The translations under genes were made by a program, and so were the position numbers. From positions 1-64,000 of the forward strand of contig NZ_VTZU01000033.1 in the NCBI RefSeq assembly GCF_008370685.1: 64,000 nt of DNA, given 5' to 3'. The DNA comes from Aquimarina sp. RZ0. Its GTDB lineage: Bacteria; Bacteroidota; Bacteroidia; Flavobacteriales; Flavobacteriaceae. Shown piece after piece: positions 49,227-58,789 of the stretch; positions within the stretch are counted from its first letter, which is position 1, and each line of letters opens with the position of its first letter. Under the pieces are notes generated by a model, which was not told where the DNA came from, ran no database searches, and saw only the letters and a list, made by a program, of their open reading frames with translations.

Positions 49227-49952
49227 TCAAATATCTAAATCAAAAGAAGATCTAAGTTTATCAATAAGCGGATTTTTTTCTCTTAATTTATTGTATTTGT
49301 CTTGTGGAGTAAAAGCATATTTTTTAGAAGCTTCTTCATTAACGGTAATGTGTAAGGTGATAGAATAATTATCAAGTTTTTTATATAAAAATTGTAGTAA
49401 TCCTGATTGGGCACTTTGCAAGTCTATCTTCATAGATTCATTAGGAAGTTCAAGGCATATTTCGAATCCTTTTAGCGTTGGAGTATTCATAGCAAACATA
49501 GAGCCTATAATACGTTCCCCTTTTTTATCTTGCATTTTTCCATAATCAGCCCATGCATTTTGCATTTCTTCTTCAGTAAATGATGATGTTGGTAAATTAG
49601 AGGGATCAATTACTTTTTCTACTTTACTTTCTTCGTGTTCTTTTTTCCTTTTTATACTATTTAGAGATAAACCAGAGGTTCTACGTTCTCTATTAGGTAA
49701 AATAGATTTTTTTTTACTATCCGTATCTGCGGGTGGATTACTTTTTGTAAGATGTTCTGAACTATTATTTTGTGCGGTGAGTTCTTTGGTCTCAGTATTG
49801 ACACTATGTATCTCATGCTTTTCTTGAGGTACACTAGTTTCATTATTTTTAGCAACTACTGTTTTTTTCTCTTTTTTTAGCTCAGAAGCTATATCAATTG
49901 GTTTTATTCCTTTTTTTTCGAAATAATCAGGTGGGATTATATAATGCTGCCC
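49227..49952 (-). CDS. dnaX: DnaX tau-specific extension, -1 frame (part of dnaX)
   Basis: 241 codons with no start codon of their own, open in the -1 frame from the end of the A10 tract (49953-49962) to the stop at 49227-49229. The linker is charged (IIPPDYFEKKGIKPIDIASE, then KKEKKTVV), typical of tau domain IV. The C-terminal ~115 residues (MQNAWADYGKMQDKKGERII to KLRSSFDLDI) form the conserved tau C-terminal domain of Flavobacteria, which contacts the polymerase. The length without a stop shows that this region is under selection and is translated. Joined to residue 358 of the upstream frame it gives a tau of 599 residues. Confidence 0.85.
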   Translation of the reverse strand, partial: GQHYIIPPDYFEKKGIKPIDIASELKKEKKTVVAKNNETSVPQEKHEIHSVNTETKELTAQNNSSEHLTKSNPPADTDSKKKSILPNRERRTSGLSLNSIKRKKEHEESKVEKVIDPSNLPTSSFTEEEMQNAWADYGKMQDKKGERIIGSMFAMNTPTLKGFEICLELPNESMKIDLQSAQSGLLQFLYKKLDNYSITLHITVNEEASKKYAFTPQDKYNKLREKNPLIDKLRSSFDLDI

Positions 49953-51025
49953 TTTTTTTTTTCTCCATCTTCAGTAAGTATGGAGGCAAGTTGCATTAGA
50001 CATAATTCTACTAGCAATCGCTGATTTCTGCTGGCTTTGTATTTTAGGTCACAATCATTCGCTAATTCTATTCCTTTCACTAAAAATTGATATGCTGATT
50101 TTTGTGATTGCTCTAAATATTTGGATTTTGTTTGCTCTCCAACTTCCAGCAAATTAATAGTCGCAGAATTTTTACAAACTAATAAATCTCTAAAATGTGA
50201 TGCTAATCCAGAAATAAAATGATGTCCATCAAATCCCTGAGCCAGAATATCATTAAATTCCAGTAATAATTGAGCGATATTATTCTCAATTATAAGATCC
50301 GTACTTTTAAAATAGGTTTCATAATCTAAAACATTAAGATTTTCGGTAACCGCCTGCCTTGTTAGATTTTTACCGCTAAAACTAACAACTCTATCAAATA
50401 TTGACAATGCATCCCGCATAGCACCATCTGCTTTTTGAGCTATGATTTGTAATGCATCTTCATCTGCTATAATATCTTCACTTTTTGCTACTTCCATGAG
50501 ATGCTTTTTAGCATCGGTAACAGTAATTCTTTTAAAATCGAATATTTGACAACGAGATAATATCGTAGGAATAATTTTATGTTTCTCGGTTGTCGCTAGA
50601 ATAAAAATTGCGTGTTTTGGTGGTTCTTCTAACGTTTTTAAAAAAGCATTAAAAGCTGCCTGAGAGAGCATATGTACCTCATCTATAATATATACTTTGT
50701 ATTTACCTACCTGAGGAGGAATACGAACCTGATCAATTAAATTACGGATATCATCTACTGAGTTATTTGATGCAGCATCTAATTCGAATATATTAAAAGC
50801 AAAATCTTCGTCAGGATTGTCGTTACCTTCCTGATTAATAGTTTTTGCAAGAATTCTTGCACACGATGTTTTACCAACTCCTCTGGGACCTGTAAATAAT
50901 AGCGCCTGAGCAAGATGGTCGTTTTCTATGGCATTCAATAATGTATTGGTAATGGCCTGTTGCCCCACAACGTCCTTAAAGGTTTGAGGTCTGTATTTAC
51001 GCGCAGATACTATAAAATGCTCCAT
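49937..51025 (-). CDS. dnaX: DNA polymerase III subunit gamma (short DnaX product)
   Basis: The frame-0 product is 362 residues: the AAA+ clamp-loader subunit that opens the sliding clamp. Walker A is GPRGVGKT (residues 46-53), Walker B VYIIDEVHMLS, SRC is in ILSRCQIF, and domain III ends at RLLVELCLMQLASIL. The zinc-binding cysteines found in E. coli DnaX between Walker A and DAAS are absent, replaced by an acidic stretch (NPDEDFAFNIFELDAASNN). The frame meets A AAA AAG in a run of ten A and stops four codons later (GSII). A -1 shift there makes full-length tau. An assembly indel in the homopolymer is the main alternative. Confidence 0.93.
   Translation of the reverse strand: MEHFIVSARKYRPQTFKDVVGQQAITNTLLNAIENDHLAQALLFTGPRGVGKTSCARILAKTINQEGNDNPDEDFAFNIFELDAASNNSVDDIRNLIDQVRIPPQVGKYKVYIIDEVHMLSQAAFNAFLKTLEEPPKHAIFILATTEKHKIIPTILSRCQIFDFKRITVTDAKKHLMEVAKSEDIIADEDALQIIAQKADGAMRDALSIFDRVVSFSGKNLTRQAVTENLNVLDYETYFKSTDLIIENNIAQLLLEFNDILAQGFDGHHFISGLASHFRDLLVCKNSATINLLEVGEQTKSKYLEQSQKSAYQFLVKGIELANDCDLKYKASRNQRLLVELCLMQLASILTEDGEKKKGSII
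49953..49962 (-). promoter_or_regulatory. dnaX slippery A10 tract (frameshift or transcriptional slippage site)
   Basis: On the minus strand the sequence is GGAGAAAAAAAAAAGGGC. In frame 0 it reads GAA AAA AAA AAG GGC and so contains the heptamer A AAA AAG, the same as the E. coli dnaX frameshift site. Frame 0 stops four codons later; the -1 frame continues for 241 codons. I see no strong stem-loop directly downstream. Confidence 0.65.
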
Positions 51026-51151: not shown

Positions 51152-51461
51152 CAAGCAGATCACCTTATCGCTGTCTTGATCTATATCAGGAGAGAGGAAA
51201 GTCCGGACACCATAGCTCAGTATAGCGGGTAATGCCCGTCCATTGCAAAATGAGGACAAGTGCAACAGAAAGTATGTACAGGTAAGGCTGTAGTGAAACC
51301 AGGTAAACTCTATACGGTGCAACGTCATGTATACTAACTTTTGAGGGTTGAGCGCCCAACGTTAGAGGGTAGACGGTTTGATTTTGATAGTAATGTCAAA
51401 ACTAGATAAATGATAAGGATCCACTTTTATGGTTACAGAATCCGGCTTATGATCTGCTTTT
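51152..51461 (+). ncRNA. rnpB: RNase P RNA (bacterial class A)
   Basis: The RNA component of RNase P, which matures tRNA 5' ends. Conserved blocks are present in order: GAGGAAAGTCCGGACACC (51191-51208), ACAGAAA, GTGAAACC, AGGGTAGACGGTTTGA and the 3' block ACAGAATCCGGCTTA. The terminal helix P1 is formed by AAGCAGATCA (51153-51162) and TGATCTGCTT (51450-51459), followed by a T run that acts as terminator. About 310 nt, normal for Bacteroidetes. It lies divergent from dnaX with its own promoter. Confidence 0.96.
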
Positions 51462-51533
51462 TTATATTATTTGTTTTTAGTGACCAAGCTTTCATCATGT
51501 ATTAAATTTGTTATAAATTACTAGTAGATTGTA

Positions 51534-58000: not shown

Positions 58001-58789
58001 ATGTTTAGAAAACGATTTTATTATCTTATAAAACTGCAGTATCTGGGCTTCAGATATCATGGATGGCAAAAACAGCCAGAAGTGAATACCTTGCAACGAA
58101 TGGTAGAAAGAACAATCAATTATATATTAGACCATAAAGGGTTTAAAGTTTTAGCAGCAGGGAGGACCGATGCAAAGGTATCTGCAAATGAAGCTTATAT
58201 AGAATTATTTGTAGATCATGAGGCACTAGTGCTAAATTTTTTTTTTGATTTATTAAATCAAAACCTCCCTCAGGATATACGTGCGATTAGTATTCAGGAA
58301 ACAGATGAACAGTTTAATATTATCCAGCATCCTAAGATTAAAGAATATATTTATTTGTTTTGTTATGGAGAGAAATTTCATCCTTTTTGTGCACCTTTTA
58401 TGTATAATGTACTAGAAGAGCTTAATATTAAAGAAATGCAAAAGGCTGCAAAACTATTCGAGGGAAAGCATAACTTTAGATCCTATTGTTATCGCCCCAA
58501 TGCAAATACAATTCTGGAAGGAGAGATTATTTCCTGTGAAATAGTTGAAAATACACTTTACACAGCTAATTTCTTTCCTGAAGCGAGTTATTTATTAAGG
58601 GTAAAAGGAGCAGGTTTTAAAAGAAATCAGATTCGCTTGATGATGGGGGCATTATTAGATCTTGGTAAAGGAAAGATTGATGTTGATTTTATAAAAAACA
58701 CCTTAAATCCTGACGCTGATCCAATAGTATTAGAGCATATTGTTCCGGGTTCTGGGTTGATCCTAAATGCGGTAACACTTAAAAAGTAA
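58001..58789 (+). CDS. TruA-type tRNA pseudouridine synthase
   Basis: 262 residues. The family N-terminus FYYLIKLQYLGFRYHGWQKQP and the catalytic motif AAGRTDAKVSA with D57 are present, and the RNA-binding segment FEGKHNFRSYCYRP follows. It makes pseudouridine at positions 38-40 of tRNA anticodon arms if it is a true TruA. The TruA family in Bacteroidetes also has divergent paralogues, and this copy has some unusual substitutions (RTDAKVSA rather than RTDAGVHA), so it may be such a paralogue. It forms an operon with the MOSC gene 7 bp downstream. Confidence 0.87.
   Translation: MFRKRFYYLIKLQYLGFRYHGWQKQPEVNTLQRMVERTINYILDHKGFKVLAAGRTDAKVSANEAYIELFVDHEALVLNFFFDLLNQNLPQDIRAISIQETDEQFNIIQHPKIKEYIYLFCYGEKFHPFCAPFMYNVLEELNIKEMQKAAKLFEGKHNFRSYCYRPNANTILEGEIISCEIVENTLYTANFFPEASYLLRVKGAGFKRNQIRLMMGALLDLGKGKIDVDFIKNTLNPDADPIVLEHIVPGSGLILNAVTLKK

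Follow-up and report, generated by a model that had tools for sequence, protein, structure and literature searches.

How does a bacterium whose dnaX gene is broken into two reading frames make the longer of the two clamp-loader proteins that such genes encode? The question is raised by the marine bacterium Aquimarina sp. RZ0, in a stretch of 64,000 nucleotides (nt) that we refer to as the window (positions 1 to 64,000 of contig NZ_VTZU01000033.1, NCBI RefSeq assembly GCF_008370685.1). The split dnaX spans window positions 49227-51025 on the minus strand, and its two parts, gamma in frame 0 and the tau-specific part in the -1 frame, meet at a run of ten A (A10, 49953-49962). Our answer is that this gene probably yields two clamp-loader proteins through slippage of RNA polymerase on the A10 run, the candidate slippage tract. 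That the slip takes place at transcription, that both proteins exist and that their ratio matters to the cell are all three points that we infer.

Direct reading of the sequence bears out the layout given in a preliminary description of the locus. Frame 0 (49937-51025) encodes a complete gamma-like clamp-loader ATPase of 362 residues and ends GAA AAA AAA AAG GGC AGC ATT ATA TAA, that is, with four codons between the codon closing the A10 run and the stop (TAA, 49939-49937). The protein gives the sole match above the cut-off for TIGR02397 in its genome (386 bits), and profile search finds PF13177, PF22608 and PF12169 in it. The last of these, gamma domain III, covers residues 222-348 and the tract starts in codon 355, so the switch, which had been placed exactly at the end of domain III, lies just past it. 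The -1 frame (49227-49952) is open for 241 codons, up to a TAA at 49229-49227, and encodes the tau-specific linker and C-terminal domain. The full-length profile NF011531 (PRK14971, 614 positions) aligns with frame 0 over positions 1-372 (637.8 bits) and with the -1 open reading frame (ORF) over positions 402-613 (83.5 bits); its cut-off of 685 bits is reached by neither part on its own. The third frame is closed by a TGA 23 nt past the tract (49927-49929; stop offsets 13 and 23).

Split dnaX genes of this kind have been described before. The portions of Antonov et al. 2013 (PMC3711429) drawn on here report 17 two-ORF dnaX genes in which tau is made by recoding, nine of them with ten A, and propose slippage. 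The window gene resembles these in having gamma and tau in adjacent ORFs, with the gamma stop just 3' of the poly-A run, here A10, and tau open beyond it in the -1 frame; because they have been described, it is not new in kind, and by its sequence it is a member of this type. With dnaX of Thermus thermophilus, as presented in the sections used of PMC1088944 and PMC5009743, it shares a run of at least nine A between the gamma and tau parts and nearby stops in both other frames. Unlike the Thermus gene, in which frame 0 encodes tau and gamma comes from slippage, the window gene has gamma in frame 0. In Shigella mxiE, according to the same part of PMC1088944, the longer product requires slippage, as we propose here; unlike mxiE and the slippage sites of insertion sequence (IS) elements covered there, the present tract sits in a core replication gene and is conserved over an order.

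In the mechanism that we propose, RNA polymerase would slip on the A10 tract and give transcripts that vary in their number of A. Those with the templated ten A (or 13) would give gamma, which ends four codons further on; those with 11 (or 8, or 14) would join the gamma part to the C-terminal part of tau; and transcripts of other tract lengths would give a product ending soon after the tract. It would thus be tau and not gamma that needs the shift, as the preliminary description had it, gamma being in frame 0.

The relatives of the window gene, the nearest named of which are mostly Aquimarina, carry the case for slippage. Our genus sample holds 66 genomes, 64 of them with dnaX (G037 and G038 gave no dnaX match), and the tract region is assessable in 62 of the 64 genes, L011 stopping at a contig end and L071 having an assembly gap upstream of the region; several named loci belong to the same genomes as sample entries and are not added to the counts. 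Tract length and phase in relatives had been singled out as informative, and a tract is present in all 62 genes, with A10 in 58, A11 in two and A12 and A14 in one each, while the offset of the tau frame varies. Tau is in frame in 40, which is the Thermus-like arrangement that the window does not have, and out of frame in 22: offset +1, as in the window, in 17, and +2 (or -1) in five (L014, L025, L039, L060 and L069). The comparison thus supports two products by a change of frame at the A10 run. A direction of shift that varies among orthologs is, in the text drawn on of Antonov et al. 2013 (PMC3711429), a mark of transcriptional realignment, and among these orthologs (40, 17 and 5) the direction does vary. 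The preliminary description had left ribosomal shift and slippage side by side; the comparison favours slippage, because close relatives that share the tract need shifts of different size.

The same sample bears on the suspicion, voiced early on, that the split is a one-base error of assembly or sequencing in the A run of one genome. Homopolymers are error-prone, and the assembly holding the window consists of 259 contigs. However, A10 is found alike in split genes of the window's group and in unsplit relatives, the change sitting in the bases after the tract, and the split recurs in other assemblies, two of them of one contig: the +1 split is present in G025 and G033 (a single contig each) and in Aquimarina latercula DSM 2041 (L073), and a +2 split in G012 (two contigs). 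Because the same +1 split stands in other assemblies, an error in the window is very unlikely, to the point that we see hardly any chance for it. One-frame relatives without a slippery tract had been thought a sign of artefact; one-frame relatives do exist (40/62), and all 40 keep the tract. As a general explanation, assembly error is rejected on the strength of the single-contig +1 genomes and the two-contig +2 genome.

In the window's group a T after the tract has apparently been lost, and the TAA that stops gamma corresponds to letters that unsplit relatives read, in another frame, as part of their Tyr-Ile-Ile codons. Judged by eye from the flanks, other flips involve an additional G before the tract (L060 and L069) or a changed tract length (A12 in L019, A14 in L039). 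Four of the five +2 genes keep A10; L039, which lies on the same contig as L084 (Aquimarina sediminis), is the one with A14. By their sequences, then, the flips look like different small changes. Parsimony on the genus tree, a quick tree, counts 11 changes of architecture, a figure to be taken as an estimate because many branches are weakly supported; the well-supported branches force just 2-3 per label.

While the frame moves, the run itself is held. Its codons are A-ending in 61 of 61 genus genomes (L051, with a one-codon offset, is left out of this control), whereas not one of 23 gamma columns with conserved Lys or Glu is A-ending throughout (mean 0.78). Elsewhere in the genus dnaX genes, runs of nine or more A (A9+) occur twice in 109,931 nt. 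In all 62 genes a stop ends each of the two non-tau frames no more than 30 nt past the tract, compared with 36% of random positions in the tau ORF, and in the unsplit genes the frame reached by one extra base has a stop directly 3' of the tract in 39 of 40 cases and three bases further on in the remaining one. A10 runs are not rare per se in so AT-rich a window (three on both strands, 4.6 expected by shuffling); the position and conservation of the one at the dnaX boundary are far beyond chance.

Could the ribosome do the shifting instead? Programmed -1 ribosomal frameshifting would make tau at A AAA AAG (49952-49958), the heptamer formed by the last six A of the tract and the following G, which is in the right phase in the window. 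Such a shift would resemble that of E. coli dnaX, with the same heptamer and two products (here predicted), but with the roles reversed: in E. coli the shift makes gamma and is aided by a stem-loop on the 3' side and by a Shine-Dalgarno-like element upstream. This internal Shine-Dalgarno element lies about 10 nt upstream in E. coli dnaX. The window has a GGAG immediately 5' of the tract (49963-49966), 4 nt ahead of the heptamer and so nearer than in E. coli; the motif is not kept across the order, and since it is frequent in family loci and not in the order, it probably represents Gly-Glu codons and not an internal Shine-Dalgarno element. Unlike in E. coli, no hairpin is predicted downstream of the window tract (minimum free energy (MFE) -5.5, z +0.66, over 70 nt and with pseudoknots outside the method), and there is little sign of structure 3' of the tract in the genus, where the mean z is -0.26 for split and -0.67 for unsplit genes.

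The relatives sharpen this picture. A -1 ribosomal shift could not serve the five +2 genes of the genus, because these need a +2/-1 offset, and in 39 of the 40 unsplit genes A AAA AAT takes the place of the heptamer. The tract is held at nine or more A although the natural E. coli site is A6G, according to the part used of the review PMC5009743; the same part mentions a reversed case, with tau as the shifted product, for Chlorobium phaeobacteroides. As the general and sole mechanism, -1 ribosomal shifting is rejected on the +2 genes. For the window itself it stays a rival, one that we regard as unlikely.

Beyond the genus, dnaX was matched in 119 of 146 genomes of an order-level sample and 110 genes were fetched, the window's own being among the nine that were not. 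With gamma residue 345 as the search point, and counting runs that start 15-125 nt beyond it, an A9+ run stands at the gamma/tau boundary in 106 of the 110 (the exceptions are L214, L238, L240 and L270), compared with 7 such runs in 190,714 nt elsewhere in these genes. Tau is in frame in 53, offset +1 in 54 and +2 in three, hence out of frame 0 in 57; the +1 count takes in L214 and L238, both without a long tract, and of two genes that end near the tract (L144 and L168) L168 is counted in frame by default. All three phases of the run are represented (phase 0 in 30 genes, phase 1 in 64 and phase 2 in 16, a count that takes in the four genes lacking a proper tract), in keeping with slippage on a homopolymer. 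Both non-tau frames are closed within 30 nt in 101 of the 110 genes, as against 30% of positions drawn at random from the tau ORF. What is conserved, as far as sequence comparison can tell, is an unbroken run of about ten A and not a fixed heptamer, phase or frame, and a long run kept in this way would match the requirement of polymerase slippage.

Some groups are uniformly split among the genes fetched, with the tau frame open: the +1 offset is present in all 15 genes of the genus g2 (suspected to be Flavobacterium) and in all 26 of the family f4 (suspected to be Weeksellaceae). Others repeat the Aquimarina flip, as in the genus g3, where two species differ, L254 (A10) being +2 and L273 (A11) in frame. 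On the order tree (likewise a quick one, with some long branches, with L168 unlabelled and the labels of L214, L238, L240 and L270 assigned by hand) parsimony counts 17 changes, or 13 for the +1 label alone, at least 8 of which are forced by well-supported branches. In L240 the tau frame is open and holds an A12 run 151 nt past the reference point, far 3' of where the tract usually stands; this run may have arisen by chance or be a tract that has moved. The 27 genomes without a dnaX match at our threshold include reduced genomes of about 0.6 Mb from the group f15/g30 (18 of the 20 listed); G150, of the same group, passes the threshold with a score below the family cut-off.

Two of the exceptions argue for ribosomal shifting in their own lineage. 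Just past gamma residue 345, L214 and L238 have CCAAAAAAGTAG in place of the long A run, with A6G directly abutting TAG, followed by a predicted hairpin (L214: MFE -28.0, z -3.7; L238: MFE -20.8, z -0.2). This arrangement suggests that in these genes tau would be made by a ribosomal -1 shift instead of transcriptional slippage. Furthermore, z falls below -2 for the fold 3' of the tract in 13 of the 55 long-tract split genes of the order, and a stimulating RNA structure may therefore exist in some lineages.

In split genes the tau part could also be on its way out, or be a gene of its own. The first possibility, recent loss with a decaying frame, has the broken frame on its side and nothing further. 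The preliminary description took the undamaged -1 frame as an argument against decay, and rates of substitution agree: the ratio of nonsynonymous to synonymous differences (pN/pS), taken in the tau frame, is 0.09-0.37 for all 13 split-gene pairs compared, which were chosen by hand, share sequences and are not all independent, and 0.31-0.41 for the window against six relatives. In the split pairs examined, purifying selection acts on the tau frame. Since, moreover, whole groups such as g2 and f4 are split and retain an open tau frame, decay is rejected, and we see practically no chance that it explains the window.

In the second possibility, dnaX would have become two genes, one for gamma and one for a C-terminal tau protein with its own start of translation. 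In the window, the tau frame has its first ATG at the head of a 112-codon ORF, and in 10 of the 22 split genes the first Met after residue 70 is equidistant from the end. The same Met is found in 33 of the 40 unsplit genes, however, so that its sharing is explained by protein sequence. The linker ahead of this Met is selected in the tau frame: taken alone, it has a pN/pS of 0.20-0.54 in 12 of 12 split-gene pairs, again not all independent, compared with 0.66-3.33 in the other two frames, and the window's tau frame has no ATG, GTG or TTG for 129 codons after the tract. Given linker selection and the lack of a usual start, the linker is most likely reached by translation from upstream. Separate initiation, rejected on these same two grounds, strikes us as highly improbable.

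Against slippage, which we still prefer for the window, several points have to be set. Offset +1 outnumbers +2 both in the genus (17 to 5) and in the order (54 to 3), as -1 ribosomal shifting would also give, and the window does carry its heptamer in phase. A pattern scan, which can miss an unusual tRNA, found tRNA-Lys(UUU) as the only lysine tRNA type in 14 of 14 genomes; its single CUU-type match (L327) is not called a tRNA by ARAGORN, which confirmed Lys(TTT) in the other 10 of the 11 loci checked (9 genomes). Thermus differs in having two lysine tRNAs, and slippage in T. thermophilus has been linked with them in the portion used of the review PMC5009743. Ribosomes, too, can slide on A runs, as reported for coli systems in the part drawn on of PMC4363877. 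Sliding during translation could deliver all frames without any slip of the polymerase and could serve both the +1 and the +2 genes; we give it a small chance. Sequencing errors might account for the A12 and A14 tracts, the weak support of many genus-tree branches counts here as well, and the two-product reading, well supported as it is, draws its support from comparison. In the wider phylum, finally, 15 of the 30 best-scoring loci show no A9+ run within the stretch tested. All 20 further phylum loci have the tract (L292-L311; 17 split and 3 unsplit), but these were hand-picked for frame status and form no unbiased sample.

If RNA polymerase slips on the run, the consequences reach beyond one gene. 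Slippage on about ten A delivers every frame, and the frame in which DNA encodes tau would consequently be nearly free to drift. We lean, by a little, to the view that this is what has happened: the tract was conserved over most of the order, the architecture flipped many times in both directions, and the lineage of L214 and L238 exchanged transcriptional for ribosomal recoding with the output kept. In the text used of Antonov et al. 2013 (PMC3711429) the 17 genes are all -1 shifts; here there are within-genus flips and a +2 class as well, and the conservation of the tract in unsplit relatives takes the analysis beyond that text. Among papers on dnaX slippage or frameshifting, with subscription papers and supplements outside the search, no title or opening of an abstract points to a survey of Flavobacteriales or Bacteroidetes. 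What we regard as new is, first, that the frame has flipped repeatedly, and both ways inside a single genus, around a tract that is retained, and second, that one branch appears to have exchanged its mechanism.

For the question of why bacteria retain two DnaX proteins, the order offers a natural experiment in which the run that would set their ratio is kept and the frame flips. To tell polymerase slippage from ribosomal shifting, sister genes of the +1, +2 and in-frame classes could serve as constructs just as they are. For much of the order, in which 57 of 110 genes have tau out of frame 0, annotation pipelines may list gamma alone or a dnaX that looks broken.

The predicted C-terminal domain of tau (49230-49649) is conserved in alignment. 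A model of the C-terminal 140 residues of the tau part has a mean predicted local distance difference test (pLDDT) score of 79, and the fold is predicted to be KH-like. Foldseek gave no match at an E-value of 0.001 or below. The best rows of a second fold comparison were 4tps (SirA with DnaA domain I, Z 8.4), 8a3v (DnaB with DciA, Z 8.1) and 2e0g (the DnaA N-terminal domain, Z 7.8), with ribosomal proteins close behind; no solved tau domain V was among the rows shown. A profile of the region found nothing significant among PDB sequences, its best match being PolC (E 0.041), the N-terminal region of which is related to tau domain V according to a title cited in PMC3919608. The modelled region fits a KH-like tau domain V and is possibly that domain.

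Two further features of the window may be mentioned. The RNase P RNA (RF00010, 212 bits) lies at 51152-51464 on the plus strand, divergent to dnaX, its start and the start codon of dnaX being about 127 nt apart. On the same strand, a run of ten T (58237-58246) inside an ORF of 262 residues (58001-58789) may be a second site of slippage within coding sequence.
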